Part shown: piece by piece, positions 3,331-35,933 of the stretch
How the letters are laid out: each line of letters begins with the position of its first letter
Numbering within the stretch: the first letter of the stretch is position 1
Origin: an uncultured Verrucomicrobiales bacterium
Lineage (GTDB): Bacteria > Verrucomicrobiota > Verrucomicrobiia > Verrucomicrobiales > DEV007
NCBI GenBank assembly: GCA_937891465.1
Contig: CALAHF010000166.1
Location: 1 to 64,000, forward strand
Length of the DNA stretch: 64,000 nt
Reading direction: 5' to 3'
Notes under the pieces: model-generated
The model's input: the letters and a program-made list of their open reading frames with translations, nothing else
What the model was told of the DNA's origin: nothing
Databases searched by the model: none
Position numbers and translations under genes: made by a program

Positions 3331-6300
3331 TTACTTTCGCTGAAACGGCGCGCTCTGCACCAGCGCCTGAATAAACTCGCTTACGTCGAAATCCTCGCCC
3401 TCGGCTGCGTCGACGATCTCATTCGCCAGATCTTCATCGGTAAAGCCAAACGGACGCCCCAGCGCATACTCAACCAGATGCTCGGCAAATCCACGGGCGA
3501 AGTCCCCTTCCCGGTCGACAATGAGGTCGCGCATCTCGCGGTAATCGGCAAACGCGGGACCACCGTGGAAGGCACCAGCCGCATCGATTTCCCAGGTCTT
3601 TCCCTTTTTCCATGCCTTGCCGCTTTTGATTCGGTGGGTTTCTGTCTTGCGCCACTTGCCGGCGGCGTCGAAGTTTTCCAGACCAAAACCAATCGGATCG
3701 ATCTTGCGATGGCAACTGGCACACTGCGCTTCTTCCATGTGCGCGGCCAGTTTCTCGCGGGTCGTGAGTGGTTCTTCGGCGAGCCGTGAAAGCTGGGGCA
3801 CATTCGCCGGAGCGGGAGGTGGTGAATCATTGAGCAGATGACGCAGGACCCAGGCGCCGCGTTCGACAGGGCTGCTTTCGATGCCGTCACTACCCATCGC
3901 GTGAATCGCTGCCATTCCTAACAACCCACCACGGGGAGAATCGGCCGGCAGGGCAACTTTCTGAAAATCATCGCCAGTGACGCCTTCTATTCCGTAGTAT
4001 CCGGCGAGCAGACCATTGACGAAAACATGGTCGCTTTTCAGGAGTTTCCCGAGGTGGCCTTCCTCCGGATTACGCAAGAGGTGGGCAAAGGATTGGTAGA
4101 CTTCCTGGCGGGCGGCGGCGCGGGTGCTTTCGTCAAATTCGCGGTGCAGCGTGGTATCGAACTGAAAGAAATCGAGGCGCTCCATGTCGAGCCACTGGTG
4201 CACAAAGCCAGAGACGAATTCACCGGAGCGGGAGTCGGCGATGAGTCGATCCACTTGTTGCCGGATGATTTCCGGTTGGCTCAGTTTTTGTTGCTTCGCC
4301 AGTTCGAGCAGCTCCTGGTCGGGCGGGGCACTCCAGAGGAAGTAGGCCATGCGCACGGCGAGCTCGCGATCCGTGAGCTGGCGACGCTCATCCGCGTCAC
4401 TGGGTTCATTGAGGTAGAGGAAACCCGGTGAAGCAAGGATGATGCTGAGCGGCAAGCGGATGGCGGCGTCGAATTCGTCACCGGACTTGCGGCGCCCGGC
4501 GAAGATGACGGACAAACGGTCGATGAAGTCCTTCTCCGGGGCGGCTCCCCGAAAGGCCCTGAACGCAAACTGTTCGAGGATTTTCCGGGCGCGCGACGAC
4601 TCGTCCGGATCGCTTTCACTACTAATCCACCAGTCCAATTCCGAAGACGTGCCATTCGATGAATTCAACGGGCCTTCCCATTCGACCCAATCGACCCACA
4701 AAGCTGGAACTGGACCCACGCCTGTTTTTGCGCGGGCTGCCCGGTAACGAGCGAGATCTGTCTTGGGATCTCGCTTCTCGCGCAGCGCAAATTTGCGAGG
4801 GCCATCACGAGTCAGTGATACGGGAAATTCGATGATCTGTGGCGCGTCCGTCGAGCCGGTTATCTGAAAAGTATCCAGATGGTTGAATTGGTTTTTTTCA
4901 GGGACACTTCCCAAATTGACGAAGTGTCGATCCGCAGGTGATCCCTTGACGGTGCCAATGCGAAAACGCAGTCGGTAGTCACCGGGTGGCAGTGAGTCGA
5001 CGACGTGCTTCGTTTCCTTCCAACCGGACGGATGTTCCGGGGGTAGCGCGAAATACTCTTCCGTGTTCAGGTTATGGATGGTCAAATAGGAGCCCGTCTG
5101 CGTGAGTGGATCTTCGAGGTAGCGGCGAAAGGTGGGGCCATTTTCTTCAAAAGCCCGAATCCGGAACTTGGCTTCCTGTTCGTCCACGATGCCTTTTTGA
5201 GGCGTTCTCGTTTTAAGGAACTTAGTGGCCTTTTCGAAACCTCCCTTGTGGTAACCATTGTAAGTCCCGCGAACTTTAGCGTTGGCATTTTCTTCGACTT
5301 CACGACGCTGTTTCCAAGAGGTCGGCACGGAAGCGTGCGGGCCTTCCAATTCAACCCAATCGATCCAGATGGCGGGTGGGTGACCGTAGCCGTTTTCTTT
5401 TTTGAAGGCGTTGTGTGCATCCCAAAGCTCTTTCAGATTGCCGGTGTTGGGTTGCTTTTCCTGGATGGCGAACTCTTTGATGGTATCAGCTCCCACTTCG
5501 AGGGGAATCTCGATCACTTGCGGGTTCTCGATGGTGCCGGTGACCTGGTGGCTGCTGATCGGCCGGCCTTCCAGCCCCCAGTTTCTGCTCTCGATCAGAC
5601 GCTGGGGGTGTCCCACTTCGAGGAAATGACGTCCCGCGGGCGAGCCCTCGACGGCCGCCGCTGCGACGCGGAGCGTGTAGCTACCGGGTGGCAGTTGCTT
5701 TTTCTTATGAGAAATAATGAGGCGACCGGTGCCGTGAGCAAGCTTCAGGTAGCTACCACGGTCACGGTGCGGCAGACTCGCGTAGTATTTGTGATAGGCG
5801 AGGTTGCGGCGGTCGGCTTCGGGATCGCCGCCAGCAGCTTTCTTAGAGTCGCGGAAGCCGAATTCCTTGGGATCGGGCATACCTTTAAGGCGGTCGGCAT
5901 AGCCGTAAAAGCGATTGGGATGATCGATGAGGCGATCCGTTTTGCGAATCTCTGCAATGAGCGCCTGGTTCTCAGGAGACTTGGCAGCTTCATCGACGCC
6001 TTTCTTCCATTTGGTGAAGCGGGCGTATTCGTCTTCGATATTTGCGACCTGTTTTTCGTTGTCCGGATTGATCGTCTTTTCGGGCTCGACACGGGTCACG
6101 GTGGATGCGGCTGCTTCCTGCCCCGTCGTTGCGCGGCGTTCGAACAACTCGTCGATCGCGCTGCGTCCGAGTTTTAGGTATTGCTCAATCTGATCGCTGG
6201 AGATGAACTGCGAAGCGCCCACCGTATCGAAGGTGCCCGATCCGCCATCGGAAGGCAGATTGCTCGCATCCACATTGACGCCGGTGAGATAGTCGATCGT

Positions 6301-6699
6301 GTTCTGATATTCCCGCCGGTTGAGACGGCGCATCGTGATGTTGCCACCGGAATCGGCGAGCGACTTCCGCGCCGTAACCATGGTTTGAGCGAGCGCATCG
6401 ATAAAATCGGCCTTCTCCTGGTTCTCAGGTTGGGGCTCATCTTCCGGAGGCATCTCGCCAGAGTTCATTGAATTGAGCACTTTCTGCCAAAGCTCAGCCC
6501 GTTCGATCGTGGAGACCTGAAAAGGGATTTCTTCGAGGTTCACCTTGCCCTTTTCGGTGAGGGAATCGTGGCATTCGAGGCAGTATTTTTCGAAGAACGC
6601 GAAGTGCTTTTCCGGAAGTCCGGGAGTGGGTTCTGCGGCTCGCACAAAGGCACAAAGACACAAAGTCAGGGCTGTAAAAAGAAGTGTGTAGGTTCTCAT
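3331..6699 (-). CDS. Exported di-heme DUF1587/DUF1592/DUF1588/DUF1585 protein with duplicated inserted domain
   Basis: An exported protein of 1122 residues when started at the ATG at 6699, which gives a clean signal peptide (MRTYTLLFT to FVRA). The frame is open 19 codons further upstream but that part is not signal-like. A planctomycete cytochrome C-type domain has a CLECH heme motif (C40-C43-H44). A second CASCH motif lies near residue 991, followed by DPIGFGLENFDAAGKWR, the hallmark of DUF1588. DUF1587 (LNRREYQNTIDYL) precedes it and DUF1585 ends the protein. Between DUF1587 and DUF1592 there are two copies of a roughly 150-residue domain, each ending with a PA-W-IDWVE or PALWVDWVEWEGP type motif; this makes the protein longer than most relatives. 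Such proteins are thought to act in electron transfer or polymer degradation outside the cytoplasm; the substrate is unknown. Confidence 0.88.
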   Translation of the reverse strand: MRTYTLLFTALTLCLCAFVRAAEPTPGLPEKHFAFFEKYCLECHDSLTEKGKVNLEEIPFQVSTIERAELWQKVLNSMNSGEMPPEDEPQPENQEKADFIDALAQTMVTARKSLADSGGNITMRRLNRREYQNTIDYLTGVNVDASNLPSDGGSGTFDTVGASQFISSDQIEQYLKLGRSAIDELFERRATTGQEAAASTVTRVEPEKTINPDNEKQVANIEDEYARFTKWKKGVDEAAKSPENQALIAEIRKTDRLIDHPNRFYGYADRLKGMPDPKEFGFRDSKKAAGGDPEADRRNLAYHKYYASLPHRDRGSYLKLAHGTGRLIISHKKKQLPPGSYTLRVAAAAVEGSPAGRHFLEVGHPQRLIESRNWGLEGRPISSHQVTGTIENPQVIEIPLEVGADTIKEFAIQEKQPNTGNLKELWDAHNAFKKENGYGHPPAIWIDWVELEGPHASVPTSWKQRREVEENANAKVRGTYNGYHKGGFEKATKFLKTRTPQKGIVDEQEAKFRIRAFEENGPTFRRYLEDPLTQTGSYLTIHNLNTEEYFALPPEHPSGWKETKHVVDSLPPGDYRLRFRIGTVKGSPADRHFVNLGSVPEKNQFNHLDTFQITGSTDAPQIIEFPVSLTRDGPRKFALREKRDPKTDLARYRAARAKTGVGPVPALWVDWVEWEGPLNSSNGTSSELDWWISSESDPDESSRARKILEQFAFRAFRGAAPEKDFIDRLSVIFAGRRKSGDEFDAAIRLPLSIILASPGFLYLNEPSDADERRQLTDRELAVRMAYFLWSAPPDQELLELAKQQKLSQPEIIRQQVDRLIADSRSGEFVSGFVHQWLDMERLDFFQFDTTLHREFDESTRAAARQEVYQSFAHLLRNPEEGHLGKLLKSDHVFVNGLLAGYYGIEGVTGDDFQKVALPADSPRGGLLGMAAIHAMGSDGIESSPVERGAWVLRHLLNDSPPPAPANVPQLSRLAEEPLTTREKLAAHMEEAQCASCHRKIDPIGFGLENFDAAGKWRKTETHRIKSGKAWKKGKTWEIDAAGAFHGGPAFADYREMRDLIVDREGDFARGFAEHLVEYALGRPFGFTDEDLANEIVDAAEGEDFDVSEFIQALVQSAPFQRK

Positions 6700-6730
6700 T
6701 TCTTTGTGCCTTGGTGGCTTGGTGTGAGAC
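6639..6730. repeat. 92-bp duplicated palindromic element, copy A
   Basis: This copy matches 6830-6921 over 92 positions without a gap. It is itself an imperfect palindrome: TTTGTGCC-type sequence on one side and GGCACAAAG-type on the other, with several CACAAAG units. It holds the ATG and most of the signal-peptide codons of the DUF1592 gene (start 6699). Repeats rich in CACAAAG/CTTTGTG occur widely in these phyla (recollection, not checked). Confidence 0.75.
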
Positions 6731-6748
6731 TCGTTCGTTTCGCCATTT

Positions 6749-6791
6749 CGATCCAATAGGGTTGGTTCGATGAACAGACCCTGTTCGTTCG
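6749..6791. repeat. 43-nt palindromic repeat, copy 1
   Basis: A member of the dispersed intergenic family. The outer arms CGATCCAATAGGGT and ACCCTGTTCGTTCG and the inner pair GTTC/GAAC can form a hairpin. Here the dyad is extended by CATTTCG before it and CGTGAAATG after it. It lies between the DUF1552 and DUF1592 genes, so an RNA hairpin could modulate expression between them. Confidence 0.75.
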
Positions 6792-6829
6792 TGAAATGGG
6801 TGAAACAGATTCGGGGGTGGTTTCAGCAG

Positions 6830-6921
6830 CTCGCACAAAGCCACAAAGCCACGAAGGCAGGACTGTAAAAAGAAGTGTGTAGGTTCTCATTTCTTTGTGC
6901 CTCAGTGGCTTGGCGTGAGTC
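6830..6921. repeat. 92-bp duplicated palindromic element, copy B
   Basis: Second copy of the element at 6639-6730, displaced by 191 bp. It also carries an ATG (6890, minus) followed by a signal-peptide-like reading MRTYTLLFT, but the frame runs on into unrelated sequence and stops at 6696, so it makes no plausible protein. It follows the 3' end of the DUF1552 gene almost immediately. Confidence 0.75.
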
Positions 6922-6927
6922 CTTCGA

Positions 6928-8214
6928 TTAAGCCTGCAGTTCCTTCACGATTCCCGAGCTATCTCCATGCCGCTCGGCTTCGATACCCATTCCCTGAAGC
7001 ATCGTCAGCCACACGTTGCAGAGCGGCGTGTCCTCTGGCAGGACGAGATGCTGTCCCAATTTCAGATTCGCTCCTCGACCTGCAATGACGGTGGGGCAGT
7101 TGGTCAGGTAGTGAATCGAGCTGATGTTCGATCCGAAAGTCACGGTGGTGTGATCAAAGAGGCTCGATCCGCCGGCTTCTTTCGTGGCCTTGAGCTTGTC
7201 GATGAGGCCGGCGAGCAGTTCGCTGTGGACCTTGTCGCGCTTCTTGGAAGCCTCCATGCGCTCGCCCGGGGAGTAATGGCTCACATTGTGAGCGCTGGGT
7301 TTGAGATCGAGACTCTGCAGGAGGGTGCTGGCGGGCAAACGATAGGTCAGCGCGCGGGTGCTGTCGGTCTGCAACGCGGCGACAATGAGCTGATACATGA
7401 TTTCAATCTCAGCCTTCCCCTTCAAGCCCGGAGCAGGCTCATCGAGTGGAGCCTTTATCTTGGGCACATCGAGCCAGTCTTCGTCTTTGTTGAGGCGGGT
7501 CTCGATGTCGCGAATACCTTGAAAATATTCGTCCAGCTTGTCGGTGTCTGTCGTGGAGAGCCCACGCTGGACGCGCTTTGCTTCGGATAGCACGGCGTCG
7601 AGGACACTGCGGTTCTCGGCGATGGCCGCCTGACGCTGTTCCAAAGGCAGGTCGTCAGCGGAAAACAGTTTGTGGAACACCTGCACCGGGTCGCTCTGTC
7701 CGGCGACCGGCTTGCCGCGCTGATCCCAGGCGAGGGAAAGTCCGGGACCGTGCCCCTGAAGTTCGGAGCTGTTGAGCTGGATCGAAGAAAAGCGAGTCTC
7801 TTGTCCCAGTTGCTGAGCGACGACCTGATCGACGGAAATACTGTTGGCCATGTTCTGCCCGGCCACGGAGTAACGATTCGCGCCGGTGAGCCAGAAGGTG
7901 CTGCCCCAGTGCGCCTCGTTGGTGAATTGGTTGGAACAGCCCTGCACCACCGTGATGTCCGATTTGTGACGCACGAGCGGAGAGAGCCCTTCGGAAAGTT
8001 CGTAGTCGGTGCCGGTCTTCGCCACATCTGGAAACCATGTCTCTTTCGTCATCCCGAAGCCTGTGCCGAGGAAAACGGATCGTTTCGGTGGCGTGCCGGG
8101 TGTCGTGGAAGCGGCCGAAGCAAAGCGTCGAAAACCGATGGACTCCAGCGCGGGCAGAGCGATGAGCGCTCCGGTTCCGCGAAGGAAGTGGCGGCGATTG
8201 AAAGAGGTTTTCAT
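6928..8214 (-). CDS. DUF1552 family protein with Tat-like signal
   Basis: A 428-residue protein beginning with a twin-arginine-like leader (RRHFLRG, then a hydrophobic stretch ending near residue 30). DUF1552 features are visible: FLGTGFGMTKETWFP near the start, QGCSNQF, GANRYSVAGQNMANSISVDQ, SLDLKPSAHNVSHYSPGE, and a C-terminal LCNVWLTMLQGMGIEAERHGDSSG. In Planctomycetota and Verrucomicrobiota this family is almost always encoded next to a DUF1592 cytochrome, as here (229 bp apart). The two are thought to act together at the cell envelope; the chemistry is not established. A folded-state export route through Tat is inferred from the leader. Confidence 0.88.
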   Translation of the reverse strand: MKTSFNRRHFLRGTGALIALPALESIGFRRFASAASTTPGTPPKRSVFLGTGFGMTKETWFPDVAKTGTDYELSEGLSPLVRHKSDITVVQGCSNQFTNEAHWGSTFWLTGANRYSVAGQNMANSISVDQVVAQQLGQETRFSSIQLNSSELQGHGPGLSLAWDQRGKPVAGQSDPVQVFHKLFSADDLPLEQRQAAIAENRSVLDAVLSEAKRVQRGLSTTDTDKLDEYFQGIRDIETRLNKDEDWLDVPKIKAPLDEPAPGLKGKAEIEIMYQLIVAALQTDSTRALTYRLPASTLLQSLDLKPSAHNVSHYSPGERMEASKKRDKVHSELLAGLIDKLKATKEAGGSSLFDHTTVTFGSNISSIHYLTNCPTVIAGRGANLKLGQHLVLPEDTPLCNVWLTMLQGMGIEAERHGDSSGIVKELQA

Positions 8215-9391: not shown

Positions 9392-9434
9392 CGAACGAAC
9401 AGGGTCTGTTCATCGAACATACCCTATTGATTCG
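9392..9434. repeat. 43-nt palindromic repeat, copy 3
   Basis: Arms CGAACGAACAGGGT and ACCCTATTGATTCG with inner TGTTC/GAACA pairing. It is the second copy in the same gap, 178 nt after copy 2, and ends 46 nt before the sulfatase start. Confidence 0.8.
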
Positions 9435-35890: not shown

Positions 35891-35933
35891 CGACCCAATA
35901 GGGTCTGTTCATCGAACCAACCCTATTGGTTCG
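35891..35933. repeat. 43-nt palindromic repeat, copy 7
   Basis: One of the best copies: arms CGACCCAATAGGGT and ACCCTATTGGTTCG, inner TGTTC/GAAC. It ends 27 nt before the def start codon, so a hairpin would sit in the def leader. Confidence 0.85.

Follow-up and report, generated by a model that had tools for sequence, protein, structure and literature searches.

A dispersed palindromic repeat at the 5' end of a DUF1592-type gene, read in part as a predicted signal peptide, and its likeness to inverted arrays bracketing GxxExxY genes

In a 64,000-nt stretch of DNA from an uncultured Verrucomicrobiales bacterium (the whole analysed stretch, hereafter the window), the 5' end of a cytochrome-like gene, coding for a DUF1592-type protein, holds a palindromic repeat built of short tandem units, here called element A. 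We consider it likely that this is a dispersed repeat, one arm of which is read as half of the predicted signal peptide, that the 5' end of the gene was subsequently duplicated, and that A belongs to the cargo-less members of a class of inverted arrays linked to GxxExxY genes; that such elements move is what we infer from their distribution.

A duplicated 5' end

The features of the region are as follows.
3331..6699, minus strand: DUF1592-type gene, with domains PSCyt1, DUF1587, 1595, 1592, 1588 and 1585
6621..6638, minus strand: duplicated stretch past the inner arm, early mature codons, 14/18 identical to 6812-6829
6637..6699, minus strand: predicted signal peptide encoded by core and arm, MRTYTLLFTALTLCLCAFVRA, with cleavage expected ahead of AEP (by rule and eye)
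6639..6728, minus strand: inner A element, with CTCG at 6639-6642, core at 6667-6701 and GAG at 6726-6728 (plus-strand reading)
6643-6650, 6651-6658 and 6659-6666 (plus-strand reading): left units of inner A, CACAAAGG, CACAAAGA and CACAAAGT
6702-6709, 6710-6717 and 6718-6725 (plus-strand reading): right units of inner A, CTTTGTGC, CTTGGTGG and CTTGGTGT
6696..6890, minus strand: outer frame of 64 aa, from its ATG to a TGA that overlaps the inner ATG
6729..6811, no strand: spacer holding the REP-like palindrome B, whose core is matched exactly at 6758-6782
6830..6919, minus strand: outer A element on the plan of inner A, with CTCG at 6830-6833, units at 6834-6857, core at 6858-6892, units at 6893-6916 (2/3 worn) and GAG at 6917-6919
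6928..8214, minus strand: DUF1552 gene (domain match), the upstream neighbour, with a Tat-like signal match

The DUF1592-type gene (6699-3331) comes after the DUF1552 gene (8214-6928) on the minus strand. The gap-free match of 92 positions that the first-pass annotation had described between 6639-6730 and 6830-6921 is real, with 83/92 positions identical. A repeat search delimited the pair as 6621-6728 and 6812-6919 (89% over 108 nt); the 191 bp given earlier is the distance from start to start, and the gap between the copies is 83 nt by these limits and 99 nt by those of the 92-mer. The inner copy is indeed an imperfect palindrome, with 16-nt arms that are 94% complementary in the repeat search. 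Three 8-nt units stand on each side of its core (CACNAAGN outward, NCTTNGTG inward). The outer copy is built alike, although its right arm is more worn (CTCAGTGG, CTTGGCGT). Of the nine mismatches in the 92-mer, five affect two positions of the 8-nt units, the eighth (three) and the fourth (two), both of which also vary among dispersed copies of the element.

Both copies carry, on the minus strand, an ATG followed by MRTYTLLFT (ATG at 6699-6697 and 6890-6888), and only the inner one leads into the protein with PSCyt1 and DUF1587/1595/1592/1588/1585 domains, in agreement with the first reading of the sequence. The outer ATG had been called a dead start. It leads to no DUF1592 protein, but it does open a frame of 64 codons whose TGA (6698-6696) overlaps the inner ATG. 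The likeness of the copies extends on the coding side beyond the palindrome, where 14/18 bases are identical (0/20,000 random 18-nt pairs drawn from the window were as alike), and ends there, the next 30 nt giving 5/30 identical positions. Element A and at least 18 nt after it are therefore present twice at an offset of 191, with repeat B in between. A search of the genome (5.97 Mb) for the 92-bp unit returned these two copies and no third. A local duplication of the 5' end, one of the two origins proposed earlier, is supported by the restriction of the 92-mer to this site and by the 18 nt copied past the arm. The gene's own copy would be the source and the outer copy the duplicate; the simplest order is that A came to lie at the gene and was then duplicated with it, with B between the copies.

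Element A is dispersed among related genomes

The general plan of A is CTCR-(CACNAAGN)2-4, a variable core, and (NCTTNGTG)2-4-YGAG. The arm pattern CTTNGTGNCTTNGTGYGAG has 67 matches in 15/74 genomes of the family and none for the reversed control, and a 124-nt query was matched at E<=0.01 in 11/57 genomes, own included. Left arms lie at most 160 nt upstream of 103/224 right arms, versus downstream of 16/224, both counts taking both strands and overlapping loci and being inflated alike. Altogether, 28 distinct paired A elements of 61-163 bp were identified. Their cores vary among elements of different lineages, and no full-length match including the core was found elsewhere in the own genome or in 56 relatives.

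The own genome is poor in A. It holds five matches to CTTNGTGNCTTNGTGYGAG, three of them here and two on contigs C31 and C147; searched with one mismatch allowed, the shorter CACAAAGNCACAAAG gave eight matches, mostly here, versus five for the reversed word. This rarity would fit a plain local duplication, in which the CTTTGTG run codes for a signal peptide by chance and the upstream arm is coincidental. The occurrence of the 92-mer at only two places, the copied coding bases and the paralogous signal peptides, alike in length and start, point the same way. Against it, both arms, the 8-nt period and the CTCR/YGAG ends match the dispersed elements of relatives, for which the reversed pattern gives no match; we regard this explanation as quite unlikely, the dispersed arms having already largely refuted it. 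Given arms that are dispersed and a 5' end that was copied locally, recruitment of a repeat and duplication, which had been put forward as two options, both apply here and are not rivals.

Rfam gave no match for 6500-7050 at E<=1. GTAG/CGTC-tagged REPs, the dispersed extragenic palindromes of 20-40 bp associated with RAYT, are known from bacteria including the verrucomicrobium O. terrae, which is said to be rich in REPs in the part of the source cited here (PMC3733652). Both these REPs and A are dispersed palindromes, but A is longer (61-163 bp) and, by eye, bears neither the GTAG nor the CGTC tag described there (PMC3733652). On six contigs of one genome, G025 (L065, L069, L072, L075, L123, L125), an A arm lies within about 700 bases of the contig end, as if the repeats break assemblies.

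The spacer between the two A copies holds a second repeat, element B, with the consensus TTTCGATCCAATAGGGTT.GTTCGATGAACAGACCCTGTTGGTTCGTGAAA from 40 copies. Allowing one mismatch, its core pattern has 249 matches in the own genome and 142 in a second genome of the genus, versus one across the remaining 52 of 54 genomes and none for the reversed control. Among the matches listed, exact copies in the window lie at 6758-6782, 9401-9425 and 35900-35924, and a shorter core word gave 10 window matches versus 1.29 expected. B is thus a short palindrome in high copy number, as REPs are, and near their size as given in the cited part of PMC3733652, but its 40-copy consensus shows no GTAG tag by eye. 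Y1_Tnp was, besides GxxExxY, the one mobility family sought; the sole Y1_Tnp (RAYT-like) match of the own genome (L226, G000:C171:2452-2754) contains an internal stop, and there is therefore no evident intact RAYT for B here.

An arm read as half of a predicted signal peptide

The first arm of inner A, which on the gene strand ends in CACAAAGA, stands directly before the start codon (AATG). The second arm is read in frame as LCLCAFVRA, with AEP as the next codons, and by this sequence reading it would form the second half of the hydrophobic stretch together with a signal-peptidase context, V-R-A/A-E. A valine at -3 and an alanine at -1 are suited to signal peptidase I. The features of a Sec signal (positive n-region, hydrophobic core, small residues at -3/-1) were recognised by rule and eye in MRTYTLLFTALTLCLCAFVRA followed by AEP, and the sequence offers no in-frame ATG, GTG or TTG between element A and the CxxCH motif. 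The best 12-residue hydropathy is 2.42 for the inner signal and 1.69-2.80 for eight other N-termini, with the outer frame lowest.

The arms seem generally suited to such a reading. Among 56 distinct 3-unit arms, the three sense frames have mean hydropathies of +2.04, +1.99 and +1.56 (single-arm minimum -0.05), versus means of -1.37 to -2.69 in the antisense frames. Shuffled arms are fairly hydrophobic too (mean +1.31), so that composition accounts for a large part of this property. The 8-nt length of the unit presumably explains why a sense arm tends toward hydrophobicity whichever frame is read. One sense frame is free of stops in only 21/56 arms. An A element inserted the right way round could thus serve as a hydrophobic core, and an ending GTGCGAGC would then yield V-R-A.

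The earlier proposal to compare homologues for their own signal peptides was followed with an N-terminal search, which gave 36 other matches, 22 of which (7 in the own genome, 15 in relatives) were traced back to their signal peptides. All 22/22 have other signal peptides and lack A-type arms within 330 nt before CxxCH, and element B is absent from the same interval in 22/22. The arms therefore look gained at this gene. Two paralogues in the own genome start with MKYLLFAAIY and MKNLLFAAIY at the matching place (M-K-x-LLF-A), so the core may be native and only the arms surely foreign. The nearest paralogue, on contig C147, is 80% identical over 758 aa; its N-terminus lies past the start of the contig, and it is absent among the N-terminal search matches. 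A degenerate A element is found just 3' of its stop (L225, G000:C147, 2304-2380). The other genome of the genus gave no match to the DUF1592-type gene at the limits used. At four further loci (L019, L035, L042, L046), DUF1592 genes stand behind an apparent DUF1552 end with a different repeat leader like GATCGGTCCTATCCGACCGATCAGACAGATCCGACCGATG, which ends at the ATG (by eye).

These comparisons bear on which part of the signal peptide the repeat contributed. The claim that the repeat supplies both start codon and signal peptide holds for the arm, which encodes the predicted second half and the cleavage context; for the ATG and n-region, where two paralogues are similar, an origin in the element is less sure. 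The ATG and MRTYTLLFTALT may instead be ancestral, with the arms added or grown around them. We think this somewhat doubtful but a serious possibility, and it is compatible with the rest of the preferred explanation. The M[KR]-x-LLF-A start common to the two own-genome paralogues, the differing cores of dispersed elements in different lineages and the lack of a full-length match including the core, in the own genome or in 56 relatives, all speak for it, whereas the entire core was duplicated along with the arms, and a short likeness between signal peptides is weak evidence.

The palindromes might be kept as RNA hairpins, acting in translation control or at the boundary of the DUF1552 and DUF1592 messages, with the signal peptide as a by-product. 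The inner copy does fold well on the gene strand (-26.1 kcal/mol, z -2.41, 3/200 shuffles as good), and the opposite strand gives even stronger folds (z -2.64 for the inner copy and -3.50 for the outer, 0/200 each). That better-folding strand is, however, not the one carrying the gene; the outer copy reaches only z -1.17 on the gene strand, with 27/200 shuffles as good, and the DNA folds have z -1.65 and -1.49. Promoter and terminator scans of 6500-7100 returned nothing, and hence no terminator-like site. An RNA role as the primary reason for these palindromes seems unlikely to us.

Other recruitments and known systems

Recruitment of a repeat as an export signal, as first suggested for this gene, is supported by the dispersed arms, the predicted signal half and the 22/22 homologues with other signal peptides, but it is a single case. 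The expectation that other copies would also encode export signals failed as a general rule: by inspection, one of 90 distinct arrays does so, the inner copy of the window. A frame runs at least 60 codons past the array in 26/90; with so many through-frames and one recognised export signal, recruitment appears possible yet rare. One through-frame, at L129, resembles a restriction specificity subunit by eye and was rejected as an export signal.

The arm-ATG-arm pattern had no match in the genome contigs scanned, the window's genome perhaps being left out. A relaxed pattern from AATG to the right arm, run over 84,980 species genomes, returned 20 stretches from Spirochaetes, Proteobacteria, Chloroflexota, Planctomycetes, a Verrucomicrobiales MAG and others, including the archaeon Candidatus Altarchaeum, the left arm being visible in only some of them. 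A frame of at least 50 codons past the array is present in 8/20, none of which looked credible by eye; the through-frames of L229, L231 and L242 were judged by first look alone, and only L239 was checked further. Its signal-like through-frame was rejected, an overlapping MotB-like frame (by eye) starting downstream. Within the order, the AATG-to-array pattern matched in 16/288 genomes and its reversed control in none.

Palindromic repeats within protein genes have been described before. In Yersinia, a hydrophobic translated reading of the palindromic MITE YPAL/RU-2 forms part of the predicted signal peptide of YPO1552 (Delihas; PMC2229807, in the part cited here). The likeness to A lies in a small palindromic repeat read as part of a predicted signal peptide, and it is one of description: arms of 8-nt units are a feature of A, and none are mentioned for YPAL/RU-2 in that part of the paper (PMC2229807). 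The gene hosting YPAL/RU-2 is given there (PMC2229807) as coding for 144 aa, a putative exported protein that is thought to be new. The host of A is of the DUF1592 type, and other signal peptides are found in its relatives. The same part describes Rickettsia palindromic elements (RPE) as palindromes of 105-146 bp with terminal inverted repeats that are fused in frame within protein genes (PMC2229807). A differs in its arms of tandem 8-nt units and its variable core, and the cited part gives no signal-peptide role for RPE (PMC2229807). With RPE and YPAL/RU-2 in print, at least in the part of PMC2229807 cited here, the kind is already known and the present case is a new variant.

The letters of the array units were not found in the literature searched, a scope outside which most subscription journals fall. 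What the window adds is a clear bacterial example of a dispersed repeat with one arm read as half of the export signal predicted for a member of a conserved protein family, and it suggests why such repeats lend themselves to this use. We regard the recruitment as moderately interesting and the link between GxxExxY genes and arrays as the part most worth testing.

Inverted arrays often bracket GxxExxY genes

Several short repeats are common in microbial genomes and unexplained. We analyzed two samples, of 70 and 30 genes (loci L151-L180, L278-L317 and L318-L347), for the PD-(D/E)XK-like GxxExxY proteins (TIGR04256 / PF13366 PDDEXK_3), taken from longer lists. In a motif-free comparison, the flanks of these genes pair as inverted repeats: 51/69 beat every shuffled flank and 42/69 beat 99% of mismatched pairs. 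The second sample from the phylum gave 27/29 and 14/29, respectively. Exact two-unit CACNAAG/CTTNGTG arrays had been found near 0/30 GxxExxY genes, and the rejection of the link first drawn from this count was overturned by the flank comparison. With a wider unit, 4/30 GxxExxY loci are bracketed, versus none for random anchors in 26 DUF1592 loci in five rounds. At two mismatches, GxxExxY and DUF1592 loci compare as 8/30 versus 2/26, and at three as 11/30 versus 12/26, which is no excess by locus count.

Many different short units make up the arrays that serve as bracketing arms (CGCAGAGN, CACGGAGG, CAGGATTAA, ATTCGCGG, CCGCAGAT and others). For example, CTCA-(CGCAGAGN)3 stands before the GxxExxY gene of L175 and its inverted partner after it. 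The arm kind tracks the GxxExxY protein tree, with eight changes versus a shuffled mean of 25.5 (0/200 as low), and in the joint tree of both samples with 10 changes versus 30.9 for shuffled labels. The unit classes were drawn up after the first arms had been seen and were applied unaltered to the second sample. The first-sample tree counts 42 rows, 18/70 scoring below 15 and 10/70 classed as 'other' being left out, and the joint tree counts 57/100; trees were built from matched regions, motif extraction of whole proteins having caught just 40/70. The reversed arm class CTYNGYG, with two and then three rows, is unclustered on the tree. In addition, three GxxExxY genes that lie beside A-type arms and had been left unlabelled group on the tree with labelled rows exclusively of that arm kind, in either direction (8 + 2, support 95; 10 + 2, support 96). 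A single one of these genes shares 93% identity with a labelled row; the remaining pair share 78% identity. Much of this co-variation of arm and gene is expected if both are inherited as one piece; it shows joint travel, not an action of the protein on the arm. A loose D..ExK expression matches 59/70 GxxExxY regions and a stricter one 25/70.

The A element of the window has the inverted arrays of about three 7-12-nt units that define the proposed class. It has the arm plan in common with the arrays flanking GxxExxY genes, its own units being CACNAAGN, but no GxxExxY gene lies between its arms as cargo. A may move as a non-autonomous member of an inverted-array class that often carries a GxxExxY gene, and the GxxExxY protein might take part in its spread. 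More broadly, we tentatively propose, at somewhat less than even confidence, that GxxExxY genes and their flanking arrays form an undescribed, widespread mobile class with its own array 'dialect' for each protein clade, alongside which cargo-less A-like members spread, copy adjacent gene starts and, their 8-nt units tending to a hydrophobic reading in any sense frame, can provide an export signal for a gene before which they insert. GxxExxY names and accessions are scarce in the literature searched, where no title or abstract start concerns such arrays, and the cited part of PMC8934634 merely names the domain. The arrays thus bear on the open question of the role of the GxxExxY protein. If it does act on its flanking arrays, a single explanation would cover several short repeats, and it would be open to direct biochemical test.

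Complete A elements are present on both sides of the GxxExxY gene at L137 and L124. At L124 (G025:C64, around 1293 and 1543), where several A copies cluster, A is duplicated together with the first codons of the GxxExxY gene at an offset of 250; judged from the sequence, this appears to be the same kind of event as the duplication in the window. The own genome has two GxxExxY genes, both elsewhere, one (L278) with CACAGAG/CGCAGAG-type arms and the other (L279) with arms of another kind.
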